Shown here in pieces: positions 30,194 to 35,419 of a DNA stretch of 64,000 bases. Position 1 is the first letter of the stretch, and each line of letters opens with the position of its first letter. Location of the stretch: NCBI RefSeq assembly GCF_008039615.1, contig NZ_VDUZ01000015.1, forward strand, positions 1-64,000, given 5' to 3'. This DNA is from Vineibacter terrae (lineage in GTDB: Bacteria; Pseudomonadota; Alphaproteobacteria; Reyranellales; Reyranellaceae). The notes under the pieces were generated by a model. That model ran no database searches and had not been told where the DNA came from. It saw only the letters and a program-made list of their open reading frames with translations. The translations under genes and the position numbers were made by a program.

Positions 30194-30299
30194 GGGGGCT
30201 TTCCTTTGCTACAATCCGGCGCGGCGCGCGCCTTGAGTAGCGTTGAGATCGTCGCGTGCGCGGAAGTTTTCGAGAGCGGGGGCAGGTCACGGGCTGGTC

Positions 30300-31133
30300 A
30301 TGGCGGAAGCACTCGACACATTCAGCATCGAGGAGCGCGCGCGCATCAGAAGCGCCTTGCAGCGCTACAAGCAGCTCAAGGGCGGCATCGGCGACACAAG
30401 GCTCCAGCAGCACATGGAAGAGGTGTTACGCCTGCCCGTTCGCCTCAAGGCCCTTCAGCGCTTTATCGCGGGCACGCACCGCACCGATGACATCACCGTG
30501 CATCGTTACCGGCTGTTCCTGCGCAAAGCGGCACCGCCGCCTCCCGAGGATGATCTTGCCAAGGCCTTCCGGACATTCCTGCCCCTGTCCGTGAGCTTTG
30601 GGCCGAAAGGGGCGGTAGGCCGCCTTGCGGGCAAATACCAGGCCTTCAGGAGGCCTTATCAGGACGGCGCTGATGGCGCGGACGAAAGCAAGCAGACAGG
30701 CCGATTGCAAAGATTTGCGCGGTTCATGCCAAGGCCGTCGCATGGAAGCGGATTTGACCCTGCCTGCCTTAACTTCAACCTTGAGCGATCAGGCGAGCCC
30801 GGCTTTCTTCGCGTGAGCGAAACGATCGATGAGCGCATGGACGAAGAGGCGGGAGCAACGAGTCCGGCGAAGGCCATGTTCGGAAGCAACGGCTTCATAC
30901 TCCCGTGCGCAAGGCGCGAGTTCTTCATGATGACGCGCGGATTCGGAGAGACGCGCCTTTATCTCCTGCACATGATCTCGGAAGACCCGGCCGTGCTGCG
31001 CGGGCTTGTCTTTGAGGCGCAAGACATGCTGGACCTGAGAAAAAACAAAGAGAGCGCCTGGAATCCGTCCTTTGAGATCGTCCTGGGAAGAAGAACGAAC
31101 GCGAAGAGCCAAGTCCCGAGCACGAGCGCATGA
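30300..31133 (+). CDS. Hypothetical mobilisation-region protein, 277 aa
   Basis: Begins MAEALDTFSIEERARIRSAL with a helical N-terminal domain (LQQHMEEVLRLPVRLKALQR, FIAGTHRTDDITVHRYRLF) that reads like a DNA-binding bundle. The C-terminal half has GFLRVSETIDERMDEE and GETRLYLLHMISEDPAV. It is divergent from the coupling protein gene, about 106 bp away. No family is recognised. Confidence 0.65.
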   Translation: MAEALDTFSIEERARIRSALQRYKQLKGGIGDTRLQQHMEEVLRLPVRLKALQRFIAGTHRTDDITVHRYRLFLRKAAPPPPEDDLAKAFRTFLPLSVSFGPKGAVGRLAGKYQAFRRPYQDGADGADESKQTGRLQRFARFMPRPSHGSGFDPACLNFNLERSGEPGFLRVSETIDERMDEEAGATSPAKAMFGSNGFILPCARREFFMMTRGFGETRLYLLHMISEDPAVLRGLVFEAQDMLDLRKNKESAWNPSFEIVLGRRTNAKSQVPSTSA

Positions 31134-31209
31134 GATGACCAATGTTTGACCAACGACATTAGAGCCTGATACTGATTGATATTCCTTCCGCCATGCCGGT
31201 AAGGCGAAG

Positions 31210-31228
31210 CATTAACCGCACGTTAATG
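31210..31228. other. Inverted repeat, candidate oriT component
   Basis: CATTAAC pairs with GTTAATG around CGCAC in an otherwise gene-free stretch (31134-31617) upstream of the MobC-like and relaxase genes. MOBP-type origins usually have an inverted repeat beside the nick and lie next to these genes. No nick-site match was confirmed. Confidence 0.4.
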
Positions 31229-31272
31229 GTTGAAGCCGGACAATAGAGAAATACATCGTGAAGAGACGATAC

Positions 31273-31601
31273 AAGATGTGCGCGGGGTCCCCGCGCCATC
31301 TTGGGAAGGGGGCTCAATCGCCGCCCCCGTTCCATCCCCGTCTGTCGGCCGTCTCGGGCATCGAACCCTCGTCAGCCGATAGCACCGTGTCGCCGGTGCA
31401 TCACGACCAAAGAGCCTTCGTGCCCTTTGGAAACCAGACCAGGAGACTGCGCTCTCCTGGACCATCGCGGAGCGTTTCGCCGCTCCACCACGACCGGGGC
31501 TTTCGCGCGCCCGGACCACGACCAAAGGGAGACTTCCGCTCTCCCCTTGGCACCCCATCGACCCGGCACGCGCGGCCGGGAACGCGCATGAAGGAGGCGC
31601 G
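31273..31601 (+). ncRNA. Tandem hairpin array with shared loops and linkers
   Basis: At least nine hairpins follow one another: 31273-31302, 31304-31333, 31382-31399, 31407-31430, 31439-31460, 31469-31486, 31494-31514, 31522-31550, 31562-31580, and a weaker one to 31601. Stems differ completely (for example CCAGGAGA/TCTCCTGG, GGAGCG/CGCTCC, GCACCG/CGGTGC) but loops share the form NNNCGC (TGTCGC, CTGCGC, TTTCGC twice, CTTCCGC, ACGCGCG). The linkers of the middle units are ATCACGA or ACCACGA. It lies immediately before the mobC-like gene. It could be RNA or single-stranded DNA structure; strand is a guess. Confidence 0.7.
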
Positions 31602-31617
31602 CGAAAAGTGAAACGCC

Positions 31618-31971
31618 ATGCCCGGCAGCGGCAGTGAGACGAGGCAGCGCGGTGAAGTCCTGAAGACGCGCTGCACCAAAGAGGAAGCCGCCCTGTTCCG
31701 AACGTGGGCGAAAGCCGCCGGCGTCTCGGTTCCCTCGCTGATGCGCTATGCCATGTTCGGAATTGCACCGCCTCGCGCCAGCCGCCAGCCGCAGGTGAAT
31801 GTGCAGGAAGTCGCGCGCCTGATCGGTGAAATGGGCCAGCTCAAGGCCGCACTCAAAGAGGTGGCGGCGAAGGGTTCGCCCGAGGCTTGCGACCGCGCGC
31901 ATGATGCCGCCTGCCGTGACATCGCCGATATGTGCTATCGCGCCTTCACCGCGCTCGGGAGAGAGCCGTGA
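31618..31971 (+). CDS. MobC-like relaxosome accessory protein
   Basis: 117 aa. The segment RGEVLKTRCTKEEAALFRTW, then GVSVPSLMRYAMFG, is the ribbon-helix-helix-like core of MobC/TraJ-type plasmid mobilisation proteins, followed by a helical C-terminus (VARLIGEMGQLKAALKEVAA). It overlaps the relaxase start by GTGA. It probably binds the transfer origin and helps the relaxase open the nick region. Confidence 0.82.
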   Translation: MPGSGSETRQRGEVLKTRCTKEEAALFRTWAKAAGVSVPSLMRYAMFGIAPPRASRQPQVNVQEVARLIGEMGQLKAALKEVAAKGSPEACDRAHDAACRDIADMCYRAFTALGREP

Positions 31972-33584
31972 TCCTGAAGGGCAGCCAGCGCGGGGAAGGC
32001 ACGGACCTAGCCACCCACCTGATGAACACCTACGACAATGAGTTCATCGAAATCGGCGAAGTCCATGGCGCGGTCGCAGAGGATCTTCACGGCGCGTTTG
32101 CCGAGTTCGAGGCGGTGTCGCTCGGCACGAAAGCGAGGGAATATCTCTATAGCCTGTCCATCAGTCCACCCTCGAAAATGAGCCGCGAGCAATATGCCGA
32201 CACGATCCGTGAAATCGAGAAGGGCCTGGGACTGACCGGACAGCCGCGCGCCGTGGTCTTTCATGTCAAGGACGGGCGCGAACATTGCCATGTCGTGTGG
32301 TCTCGCATCAACGTCGAGACGATGCGCGCAATCCATATGTCCCACGATCACAGCCGCCTCATGGACATGGCCTGCAAGCTTGCCCGCAAATACGGCTTTG
32401 AGCTGCCGGACGGCCTCAAGAAATGGGAGGCGAAGCAGAGATTCGAGAAGGACTATCTTGAGGCAACCCGCGCCGAAAATGCGCAGGCTGAAGAGACCGG
32501 CATCACGCCCGAAATGAGGGCCGCGCAGATTACGGAAGCCTACAATCAGTCGGACACGGCAGAGGCCTTTCGGGCGGCTTTGGAGCAGCAGGGCTACATC
32601 GTCGCGAAGAGCGACCGCCGCGACTTCGTGGTCGTCGATGAATTCGGAAATGTTCATAGCCTGTCCCGGCACATCAAAGGCCACAAGCCGAAGGACAAGA
32701 AGGCGAAACTGGCGGGGCTTTCAGCCGTACACCTGCCAAGCGTGGAGCAGGCGAAGGAACTGGCCCTACAGATCGCGCAGGCGCGGCTGGATGCGCAGCG
32801 CAAACATGAAGAAACCTCCGAGGCCATGGCGAAGGCCCAGGCCGAGCTGCGGGCGCTTAAGGATAAGCGGCAGCGCAAAGAGCAGGAATCTGCGATCAGA
32901 CAAGCCGCCCGCCGTCTGAAAGTGCAGATCGCCGAACAGGAATTGCTGACCCGGCAGCAGGAGGAACGGCTATTGCTGCACGTGGCGCAGCTAGCCGAAA
33001 GCAAGGGATTCCTGTTCCGCATTCGCAGCACGGTTGCCGACCTGATCGGACGGGTGCCAGGCCTGCGGTCCGTCCTCGGCCCTCTCCAGAACCTCACCCA
33101 CCTCGATCCCAAGGAAAGGCACCGCCTGGAGGATGAGGCGCTTTCGCGTCGTCATGCGCGGGAGCGGCAGTCCATCGAGCGCCGCAAAGGCAAGCTCGCG
33201 CTCGTCGAAAAGCGCGAACAGCAGTCACGCGCGAAAGCGCTGCGGCTTGAGCAGCGGCTTGAAGGAAAGATACGCCTCACGGCCGAGCAGTCCGCTCATA
33301 TCAGCAAAGAGACTCTTGCGCAGGCTGAGCACAAGGCGATGCAGGATTTCTACGACGCTGCGCGCGATCAGGGCCTGTGGCAGCAGAGAGTGTTCGAGGA
33401 AGGGGAACTGCGCCAGACATTCAATGATGCGGCTGGGATCGATGCGACCCCGCCAAATTCGGGTGATGGCGACAGCCACACGCCTGACCCCCACGACGAT
33501 CCCGACGATGATGGTGATGATGATGATCCGAAGATGAGGCGGCGACGCGGCAAGGGTTATGGGTATCGAAGGGATTCGGATTAG
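31968..33584 (+). CDS. MOBP-family relaxase/mobilisation nuclease
   Basis: 538 aa with GTG start overlapping the mobC-like stop. The N-terminal relaxase domain has a candidate nucleophile Tyr in LMNTYDNE, and the metal-binding histidine segment REHCHVVWSRIN preceded by AVVFHVKDG, as in VirD2/TraI proteins (PF03432). From about 270 on it is a long coiled coil (EELRALKDKRQRKEQESAI-like, HARERQSIERRKGKLALVEK) ending in an acidic tail (DPHDDPDDDGDDDD) and basic last residues, possibly the secretion signal. It nicks the transfer origin and pilots the strand. Confidence 0.9.
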   Translation: MILKGSQRGEGTDLATHLMNTYDNEFIEIGEVHGAVAEDLHGAFAEFEAVSLGTKAREYLYSLSISPPSKMSREQYADTIREIEKGLGLTGQPRAVVFHVKDGREHCHVVWSRINVETMRAIHMSHDHSRLMDMACKLARKYGFELPDGLKKWEAKQRFEKDYLEATRAENAQAEETGITPEMRAAQITEAYNQSDTAEAFRAALEQQGYIVAKSDRRDFVVVDEFGNVHSLSRHIKGHKPKDKKAKLAGLSAVHLPSVEQAKELALQIAQARLDAQRKHEETSEAMAKAQAELRALKDKRQRKEQESAIRQAARRLKVQIAEQELLTRQQEERLLLHVAQLAESKGFLFRIRSTVADLIGRVPGLRSVLGPLQNLTHLDPKERHRLEDEALSRRHARERQSIERRKGKLALVEKREQQSRAKALRLEQRLEGKIRLTAEQSAHISKETLAQAEHKAMQDFYDAARDQGLWQQRVFEEGELRQTFNDAAGIDATPPNSGDGDSHTPDPHDDPDDDGDDDDPKMRRRRGKGYGYRRDSD

Positions 33585-33632: not shown

Positions 33633-34538
33633 CTACTGTGCAGTTTGCACAAGGGAGGTGATGAGAGCGTCCGCTTCTTTGCGCCGCCGTTGCGCGTTGT
33701 CTGAGACGAGTGCTTGTTCGGGCGGCGTGAGATCAGACAGGAAGCGAAATCCATCGACAACACGGCGGATTGTTGCGTCCAGGTCCGGCCGCTGGTCCTT
33801 GCGCAGCAGATTGGTCAGGTCAGCAACGTCGTAGTCGCCATCCTCCATGATCCGGGTGCGGAAACGTTCGTAGTCAAGGCCCGGCCCGCCGCTGTTCCAG
33901 AGCTTCAGGACAGCAAGAGAGCGGATGAGATCGCGATTGAGCGGACGCGCCGCGAGTTCCGACAGGTCATGAAGGTCGCGGATTTTCGAGCGCTGACTGG
34001 CGGCCCGGATTTTCTCTGCAACAACCTCCTCGAAGGCAAGGCAGGGAACCGCCGCCGGTGCAAAGCCCAAGAGTTTGAAATAGTCCTGCTCGATCTGCGG
34101 CAGGGCGAGAACCGGGAGGACCGGGAACTCGCGGGTGCTGACCTGGAGCTTGATCTTCACGCCCCTCTCATTCTCGGCATGAGCGCAAACCGGGTTCGCG
34201 GCGCAGCCTTCCTCGATCAGATACCAGTCCTTATCCTTGTCGAACCGGAACGAAAGGCCGTGGTAGGGGGCCTGGAGCGCATCCAGCATCATCAGCATCA
34301 GATCGTCGGTGCTGATTTGCGTGCGGCAGGTGAAATCAAGGTCGGTTGATAGCCGGCCGCGTGGACCGAAAATCATCTTGCGCAACATCGTTCCGCCCTT
34401 GAAAGCCAGATGTTCAGTGACTCCTCTTTCCGAAAAGAGTTGGAGCAGATGGGTCAGGATCACATCGATTTCGACGTTGCCGATGTCTCTTGCTCCGGAG
34501 CGCCCCGCGACCTGACGTAGCTGGCCTGTCGTCAGCAT
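33633..34538 (-). CDS. abiEii: AbiEii/AbiGii nucleotidyltransferase toxin
   Basis: 301 aa. FKGGTMLRK and LSTDLDFTC are motif I and II of the DNA polymerase-beta-like nucleotidyltransferase fold, and EEVVAEKIRA the later Lys motif of the AbiEii/MenA-like toxins. These toxins transfer nucleotides to RNA acceptors and stop translation until the antitoxin represses them. The start shares one base with the antitoxin stop (TGATG), so they are coupled. AbiE systems give abortive infection and stabilise elements. Confidence 0.92.
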   Translation of the reverse strand: MLTTGQLRQVAGRSGARDIGNVEIDVILTHLLQLFSERGVTEHLAFKGGTMLRKMIFGPRGRLSTDLDFTCRTQISTDDLMLMMLDALQAPYHGLSFRFDKDKDWYLIEEGCAANPVCAHAENERGVKIKLQVSTREFPVLPVLALPQIEQDYFKLLGFAPAAVPCLAFEEVVAEKIRAASQRSKIRDLHDLSELAARPLNRDLIRSLAVLKLWNSGGPGLDYERFRTRIMEDGDYDVADLTNLLRKDQRPDLDATIRRVVDGFRFLSDLTPPEQALVSDNAQRRRKEADALITSLVQTAQ

Positions 34539-35383
34539 CAGGCTTCCTTCCCGGAGCGCAGGCGCGGCACTTCGGCCAGCAAGTCTTCGCTCCGTGCATT
34601 TACGAACAGGCCCCATGCGGCGACATAGCCGAGATCGCCTTCCTTGCGCTTTGGGCGGCCAAGGGTCGAGCGGGTGGATTTCGGGATGGCCTGCCGGATG
34701 CGCTGGCGGGTCTCCTCTGGAAGGGGCTTGCCGACGATGTCCGTCAGAAAGCCGAGCCGCTGGAGCAGCGAAGTTGACTTCATGGTCAGCCCGGCATCGG
34801 CAAGGGCGACCGCGTCAATCTCGCTCATGGCGCTGTAGATGATCCGCGCAAGTTCAGCGGGGCCGCCTGCGAGTTCAGGCCGGTCGATGCAATCGATCAC
34901 CGTCTTTTCGGGCGTTGAGATCATCACGTTGCGCCCGTAGACGTTATAGCTCTTGAACCCAAAGAATTTTTGCTCCGCAATCGTCACGAAGCGGACTTCG
35001 CTACCTTCGATGAGCCGCGCCCTGGCCTGCCGCAGGACGGCGACAGTTACGGCCATCGGCTTCTGCGTTGTGAACCCATGAAAGGCGGCGGCGGACCACC
35101 ATCCGACATAGGAGGGCTCGATCACAGCGGAGGCGAGCGCAAGCATATTGTTCTCGCCGATATTCTCGGGACCATGCTCCGGCGGCAGCAGCATGTAGCG
35201 GCCGCCGACGAGCCGGGAGAGCCAGCCTTTGCGGATGAGGTTGCGGATGACCTTGCGCCCAGTCTGCTCGGAGCCGAGCAGGTCAATGATTTCGGCGGCG
35301 CGCACGACCTCGCGGCCCTGTTCCCGGAAGGACAGGACAACCTTGGTTTCGTTAGGTCCTAGTGTTCGTAGATTGGTTTCCAT
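34538..35383 (-). CDS. abiEi: AbiEi-type antitoxin / transcriptional regulator
   Basis: 281 aa. The N-terminal winged helix (VVRAAEIIDLLGSEQTGRK, LIRKGWLSRLVGGRYML) is followed by the AbiEi C-terminal domain (SYVGWWSAAAFHGFT, KSYNVYGRNVMISTPEKTVI, AELARIIYSAM). AbiEi represses its promoter and neutralises AbiEii. The start at METNLRT was preferred to one 24 bases earlier. Inverted repeats lie just upstream. Confidence 0.9.
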   Translation of the reverse strand: METNLRTLGPNETKVVLSFREQGREVVRAAEIIDLLGSEQTGRKVIRNLIRKGWLSRLVGGRYMLLPPEHGPENIGENNMLALASAVIEPSYVGWWSAAAFHGFTTQKPMAVTVAVLRQARARLIEGSEVRFVTIAEQKFFGFKSYNVYGRNVMISTPEKTVIDCIDRPELAGGPAELARIIYSAMSEIDAVALADAGLTMKSTSLLQRLGFLTDIVGKPLPEETRQRIRQAIPKSTRSTLGRPKRKEGDLGYVAAWGLFVNARSEDLLAEVPRLRSGKEA

Positions 35384-35419
35384 ATCAAAATAGCCCCTTG
35401 AGGGCACATCTGATATACA

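Follow-up and report, generated by a model that had tools for sequence, protein, structure and literature searches.

A predicted MOBP-like transfer origin with a conserved hairpin array that may fold in the transferred strand

The stretch of Vineibacter terrae DNA analysed here, 64,000 nucleotides in length and referred to below as the window, carries a mobilisation module made up of a coupling protein, mobC and a PF03432 relaxase. Upstream of mobC lies a core of two hairpins followed by an array of further ones. We propose, with a probability of about 0.6, that this feature represents a mobilisable element's oriT region, with a hairpin array folded in the transferred strand (T-strand) as its accessory. 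Sequence comparison makes it very probable that the first part of the feature is an oriT whose nick falls on the minus strand, and the array is conserved, its stems changing in sequence yet keeping their pairing. It is this pairing, conserved in relatives, that gives the array its strongest support. The MOBP-like oriT is of a known kind; the novelty would lie in its association with a T-strand-folded hairpin array, and no such array was found described in the open-licence literature, covered by titles and the beginnings of abstracts.

Results

Gene layout of the window

The VirD4/TraG-type coupling protein (PF02534; 28589-30193, minus strand) is probably part of the element that carries the array. 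Between it and the array stands a gene (30243-31133, plus strand) with no match in Pfam or NCBIfam; a partly similar open reading frame was also seen by eye left of the core in a Roseococcus locus (L007). A promoter-like pair, TTGACC-16-GATACT (31146..31173, plus strand), proposed by a consensus scan alone, reads into the core, the array and mobC, and similar boxes are present, by eye, in the aligned L007. The product of mobC (31618..31971, plus strand) is NikA-like (PF21983, E 2.2e-8), with a weak similarity to TraJ that lies under the cut-off, and the relaxase gene (PF03432, E 3e-16; 31968..33584, plus strand) has a GTG start at 31968 according to the codon model. AbiEii/AbiEi genes come after the relaxase (33633-35407); on Sinorhizobium meliloti pSymB (L036, 5907-7305), AbiEii/AbiEi genes also lie 3' of the relaxase, with one gene between. 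A tRNA gene is located at the window edge (51-124), and a tRNA was the only Rfam 15 match in the window above the gathering threshold; seven related loci searched at E<=1 gave three weak hits to unrelated families.

Hairpins at the locus

Ten hairpins lie within 31272-31580, left of mobC, together with a weak eleventh at 31583-31601 that has no assigned strand, overlies the ribosome-binding region of mobC and may be due to chance. An earlier note on this DNA had counted nine or more hairpins before mobC, a count that holds and is far beyond that of dinucleotide shuffles. The nic hairpin P1, CAAGATG-T-GCGCGGG/CCCGCGC-CATCTTG (31272..31303; minus strand, as for all the following), adjoins P2, GGAAGGGGGC/GCCCCC-G-TTCC, which has a bulged G (31304..31333). 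P3 (31345..31379) consists of an outer stem TCGGC/GCCGA enclosing an inner hairpin GGGCATCGAACCC (31356-31368), and P4 (31382..31399) reads GCACCG-TGTCGC-CGGTGC. Further along, the hairpin finder returned CCAAAGAGC-CTTCGT-GCCCTTTGG (31407..31430), CCAGGAGA-CTGCGC-TCTCCTGG (31439..31460), GGAGCG-TTTCGC-CGCTCC (31469..31486), CCAAAGGGAGA-CTTCCGC-TCTCCCCTTGG (31522..31550), CCCGGC-ACGCGCG-GCCGGG (31562..31580) and the weak last hairpin, while an imperfect hairpin CCGGG..CCCGG (31494..31514), absent from its output, was recognised by eye. A 40-nt stretch around the hairpin at 31407-31430 shares 97.5% identity with a Sphingopyxis plasmid.

The regular design that the earlier note had described applies to part of the units. 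Hexaloops of the form NNNCGC occur in four of them (TGTCGC, CTGCGC, TTTCGC and, in the imperfect hairpin at 31494-31514, TTTCGC again), the loops CTTCGT, CTTCCGC and ACGCGCG being of other forms; 7-nt linkers ATCACGA or ACCACGA occur three times, the other linkers measuring 8-11 nt; and the stems, said to be fully paired, contain one A.C mismatch each at 31407-31430 and 31522-31550 and are imperfect at 31494-31514. Between 31260 and 31600, seven perfect hairpins (at least 6 bp, loop 3-9) were counted; 1000 dinucleotide shuffles gave 0.8 on average and never more than 4, with 0/1000 reaching seven. When 464 kb of this genome were scanned, consisting of the window and 400 kb of other stretches, a total of seven was attained by three more segments of 330 nt, and REP-like repeats make up one of the three. 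Since hairpin number alone is matched elsewhere in the genome, relatives were needed to decide. The REP-like repeats of this genome have the form TCCTCTCCCG-N4-CGGGAGAGGA with CCCATCGC-N-GCGATGGG and were seen at L215 1-500, L224 ~14030 and L218 ~12800. Sites of the attC type were considered as well, and a coding reading of the array was set aside, the window and L007 differing by small indels not divisible by three (by eye).

Relatives and spread of the core

Matches to the relaxase, the own genome included, were obtained in 5/75 genomes of the family, 25/385 class-sampled genomes and 5/76 genomes of the order, with further matches in one Roseococcus contig and in 18 plasmid records, of which four match in the C-terminal part alone. 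Similar arrays upstream of mobC are found in seven loci (L003, L004, L007, L008, L009, L010 and L029), in S. meliloti pSymB (L036) and Bradyrhizobium barranii (L037), and on the plasmids pSREG01 of Sphingopyxis (L087) and pcai42B of Frigidibacter (L089). Acidithiobacillus pTF4.1 (L038) has a short version of the array, and plasmids of Xanthomonas hortorum and Methylomagnum (L090, L091) carry the core with little or no array (by eye).

A core model (R1) was built from the first two hairpins of ten sequences. Among 44 non-viral sources, made up of the window and 43 loci, it matched 17 at E<=2e-5, always upstream of the relaxase; ten of the 17 are the model's own sequences, and the independent matches number 7/34. 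It matched 0/46 viral contigs, picked by a TACAAG pattern. Under strict filters, R1 was found in 11/398 phylum-sampled genomes (own included), and in 32/295 and 39/297 genomes of two families that had been selected for containing matches. It also matched 1/11 genomes of a third family, the one being a source of the model. In the own genome, an assembly of 8.76 Mb, R1 matches at this locus only, and the array DNA likewise has a single match. The 83-locus set used below lies apart from three R1 matches (L024, L032, L033) and the core-only L090 and L091.

The predicted nick site

On the minus strand, the left arm of P1 reads CATCTTG↓T (arrow, predicted nick), one mismatch away from the MOBP nick consensus (C/T)ATCCTG(C/T), which has an inverted repeat directly 5' of it in the passages of PMC3772185 on RP4. 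The arrangement is the same here, the inner stem of P1 standing immediately 5' of CATCTTG, and a PF03432 relaxase gene and a NikA-like gene lie beside the core. The hexamer in the window is ATCTTG and not the ATCCTG of IncP oriTs, so that the site is not filed as a canonical ATCCTG oriT. Among the 82 loci with CAAG (L004 is without it), 64 have CATCTTG as their minus-strand heptamer, 9 CACCTTG, 6 CAGCTTG and 3 TGGCTTG, and the base 3' of the predicted nick (+1) is a pyrimidine in 81/82. The mirror-image right arm, read on the plus strand, has a variable first base and a G at +1 in 63/81. In loci with a layout like that of the window, the minus strand reads ..IR-ACATCTTG↓TA.

A similar site exists in the IncP plasmid R751, where the strand opposite traJ carries GCAGGATGTGTG beside an inverted repeat, as the strand opposite mobC does here, the 12-nt nic region being nearly identical; a second CATCCTGC lies on the other strand of R751, nearer traJ. 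At least 9/12 positions of the R751 12-mer are matched in 72/83 cores, compared with 29/57,120 background positions, and the window matches 9/12 (hand count). We take this nic-region motif to be where R751 is cleaved. Nick-motif conservation and the R751 match lead us to predict that the cut in the window, 5'-CATCTTG↓TA-3', falls between 31271 and 31272 on the minus strand, and P1 with its minus-strand left arm is, with high confidence, the relaxase hairpin and nick site. The two systems also differ. The R751 stretch offers R1 no convincing match (best E 0.014, away from nic), no comparable hairpin run was seen by eye between R751 nic and traJ, and the relaxases are only distantly alike (31% over 74 aa), so that the resemblance is one of sites.

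The core is regularly accompanied by a relaxase. Of 79 genomes with a core match, 70 carry a PF03432 gene, and, among the matches listed, at least 68/102 cores have such a gene on the same contig; 65 of these 68 relaxases are downstream, within 30 kb, and 3 upstream. Nine of the 65 are on the same strand and 506-970 nt away, as in the window, and 56 are on the opposite strand and 5.1-29.8 kb away, again among the matches listed. The link to a NikA/TraJ-like gene is that seen in the window, while the relaxase link is seen in other genomes too. The transfer origin suggested in the earlier note is thereby strengthened, by an inverted repeat beside a MOBP-like nick motif, by the match to R751 nic and by the conserved relaxase link.

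Two other readings were dropped. TTTGAA hairpins upstream of mobC in array-less relatives, tried as a second oriT, turned out by eye to be codons of a conserved protein. The core as the border of an integrated element had been suggested by partial repeats left of some cores; 14/15 larger loci proved to have no right-end repeat of more than 13 nt (in the fifteenth, L193, the core could not be placed), and the core of G1279 sits within a larger region flanked by a tRNA-Arg and a thioredoxin-like gene (the latter by eye), and for these two reasons the border reading was given up. None of the 60 loci searched with ARAGORN contained a tRNA. The partial repeats, GCRAGATGTG.., resemble the core start, lie up to ~140 nt left of the core (L109, L110/L187, L120/L190, L127) and are in tandem in some loci.

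Conservation of pairing

In the alignment of P1 and P2 (A4, 75 rows fitted to the model, including two opposite-strand hits due to the palindrome), standard pairs fill 94.5% of pair cells. Double-change cells number 177 versus 46.6 in shuffles, and the covariation score is 0.325 versus 0.112. Two of the five covariation measures were near the shuffles; further pair types amounted to 28 versus 28.7 (393/500 shuffles as high), and pairs with a double change to 11 versus 8.9 (13/500 as high). The outer part of P2 is variable with compensation, by eye in the printed loci.

P3 and P4 were analysed in 50 loci picked by, and anchored on, the inner motif of P3. P4 has 24 distinct stems there, with 47-50/50 Watson-Crick pairs at five inner positions, and the outer stem of P3 is 4-10 bp long in many sequences, six having only 4 bp; these stems are the best found within a short search range, a procedure that leans towards pairing. 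MAFFT alignments of the P3-P4 region (A5 and A6, 49 of the 50 sequences, without L132) were set aside because they misalign the outer stem, hence the anchoring on the motif. The covariation in P1/P2 and P3/P4 confirms the selection on structure proposed in the earlier note, which had looked to alignments of related elements for conserved pairing.

Variation of the array and cargo

P1, P2, P3 and P4 follow one another in this order in the 50 P3-motif loci; after P4, the modules vary in number and order between loci, and blastn between downstream regions finds the same pieces at different places (among the matches listed). Hairpins are denser after the core than before it (4.9 versus 2.1 per 500 nt), at least five being present after it in 50/83 loci and before it in 5/83, and 65/83 loci have more after the core than before. 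Two hairpins or fewer are found in 18/83 loci, at least three of which (L115, L147, L148) still have P3/P4. In others of the 18 (L094, L095, L143, L146, L154 and L163) the core is followed by unrelated sequence, and L188, L194 and L195 have the core and the relaxase part in common, with non-homologous DNA between. A core without an array thus exists, which makes the array an accessory and not the cleavage site, and whatever function the core has can be performed without it. The earlier note held that absence of the array from close relatives that still mobilise would count against it; core-only loci, known as such from their sequence, do exist and go part of the way towards that objection.

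The first gene after the array was identified by a codon model that recovers the window's genes, and 30 of 39 first-gene proteins were searched against Pfam. Twelve of the 30 had no match; the others included ArdA (2), HsdM-type methylases (3), MmeI-type proteins (2), another DNA methylase (1), toxin/antitoxin families (2), AAA_13 (2) and transposases (2). A full type I restriction set is present in one core-plus-array element. Core-plus-array elements may constitute a family of mobilisable elements that carry defence genes at a fixed cargo site. In other genomes, the loci L189, L119, L144, L133, L122, L145, L110 and L113 have genes for restriction, methylases or ArdA behind the array.

Which strand folds

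Internal mismatches of the stems, sought with a finder that scores Watson-Crick pairs only, are unevenly divided. Counted on the plus strand, A.C mismatches number 48 and G.T 16 in the 51 loci (out of 83) that have at least five hairpins, with A.C dominant in 28 loci and G.T in 5. A re-run with controls in 50 loci gave 45 versus 16 (p 0.003 when segment composition serves as the reference, 3e-4 when stem composition does), the expected A.C share being 0.56 from segment composition, 0.52 from stem composition, 0.54 in shuffles and 0.51 in the genome background. When distinct stems are counted once, the figures are 38 versus 16 and the strand signal is weaker; all these statistics treat loci as independent, kinship being ignored. 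The inner pair of P3, for which the search motif allowed CG, CA, TA and TG alike, is CG in 29, TA in 8, CA in 13 and TG in 0 of the 50 loci. An A.C on the plus strand is a G.T on the minus strand, and it is therefore the minus strand that tolerates the wobble. With RNA parameters, the minus strand also has the better fold energy (-198 versus -172 kcal/mol). Fold z-scores for 31250-31620 were -4.5 (plus, RNA), -5.6 (plus, DNA) and -5.8 (minus, RNA); with DNA parameters the minus strand folds no better than the plus, at -3.6 over the shorter stretch 31268-31600, the stretches compared being different (333 and 371 nt). The minus strand, which is the predicted transferred strand, seems to be the strand that folds, on the mismatch statistics and with fold energies that do not all agree. 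The earlier suggestion of a single-stranded-DNA structure gains from this asymmetry.

A folded minus strand could also be an RNA, noncoding and transcribed leftwards from near mobC, for example an antisense regulator. The strand test and the RNA fold energy favour it, and we consider it unlikely: the consensus scan found no minus-strand promoter-like site in 31000-31900, no T run follows P1 on the minus strand and hence no obvious terminator is seen at the core end, and merely 16-37 nt separate the last hairpins from mobC. Similarly improbable is a leader RNA on the plus strand, in which the array would be the 5' UTR of the mobC operon, or of a cargo gene, and control its expression. It would account for the promoter-like site upstream and the similar boxes in L007 (by eye), and, of the 50 loci, 32 have a plus-strand gene, pointing away from the core, as the first one past the array, 7 have a minus-strand gene there, pointing towards the core, and 11 have no call; for the gene that last precedes the core, the numbers are 18 plus, 12 minus and 20 without a call. 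These calls replace those by longest open reading frame (plus 27, minus 23), which had missed mobC of the window. A plus-strand RNA would be expected to show G.T wobbles on that strand, whereas A.C dominates, and the inner pair of P3 is CA in 13 loci and TG in none. Of the structured RNA considered in the earlier note, the mobC leader is thus disfavoured by the mismatch test, and the minus-strand RNA stays as a rival.

Discussion

We propose that the relaxase would cut the minus strand at P1 and that the transferred strand would run leftwards, which would place the array just inside P1, at its trailing 3' end. If the minus strand is transferred, as we infer, the array would be the trailing end and single-stranded in transit. 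It is likely, on the statistics given above, that selection has kept the array, a modular succession of hairpins, able to fold in the transferred single strand. Its task is a more tentative matter, and we infer that it might serve the single-stranded stage as a start for the second strand. The array could offer several landing sites for a primase or RNA polymerase, and if synthesis of the second strand began close to the 3' end of the transferred one, the whole of the latter could be copied, as happens with single-strand origins (sso). Priming is preferred over transcription because the linear consensus scan found no promoter-like sites inside the array, -35/-10 boxes included; second-strand priming is in our analysis the weakest step of the proposal. 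Alternatively, the array may be a marker or brake that helps the relaxase to recognise the strand end, or a set of binding sites for a relaxosome protein.

A precedent for second-strand start by the array is sso1 of ICEBs1, which, in the passages of PMC4595007 devoted to it, has three predicted stem-loops and one active orientation and adjoins the relaxase gene. The likeness lies in several stem-loops beside a relaxase gene, and the three stem-loops there compare with as many as ten or so, modular in kind, in the present arrays. A trait of sso, the restriction of structure to one strand, is seen here statistically in the mismatch asymmetry and not in the DNA fold energies. Single-stranded promoters (Frpo/ssi), as presented in the passages of PMC11541004 that treat them, lie in leading regions and have -35/-10 boxes. 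They resemble the proposed arrangement in the folding of a transferred strand near oriT and in the ArdA genes that follow some arrays, and they differ from it in that the array is predicted to be trailing, the linear consensus scan having found no such boxes inside it. ArdA, which is found after some arrays, would be expected in the leading region, and this counts against a trailing array.

The hairpins might instead act as double-stranded palindromes, that is, operator-like sites or cruciforms to which a protein of the relaxosome, or one that binds the chromosome, attaches. Covariation is expected of inverted repeats in duplex DNA as well, and mobC is a relative of NikA, whose family consists of ribbon-helix-helix DNA binders. 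This interpretation has little probability, in that stem sequences differ freely between units, which a protein reading the sequence would not allow, and duplex sites give no strand asymmetry of mismatches. The least probable alternative, self-spreading REP-like passenger repeats piled up beside oriT, is in keeping with modules common to loci in different order and with REP-like repeats elsewhere in the genome, but the array DNA and the core model found none of the dispersed genomic copies that mark REP/BIME elements, hairpins are concentrated to one side of the core, and P3 and P4 keep their order and pairing in 50 loci.

Returning to an oriT with a T-strand-folded array, a broader picture can be sketched, which we regard as doubtful in its full extent: widespread mobilisable elements, seen mostly in Alphaproteobacteria, in which recombining single-stranded hairpin cassettes at the trailing end would launch the second strand and the first expression of defence or anti-restriction cargo. 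If this is true, the array would be the trailing-end counterpart of leading-region single-stranded promoters, providing sites for priming or for transcription of single-stranded DNA. In non-model bacteria, it is poorly known how transferred single strands become double-stranded and are expressed, and a conserved oriT with a strand-specific array would be a direct genetic test case for that question. The core model, for its part, can mark the oriT of mobilisable elements that carry restriction and other defence genes.
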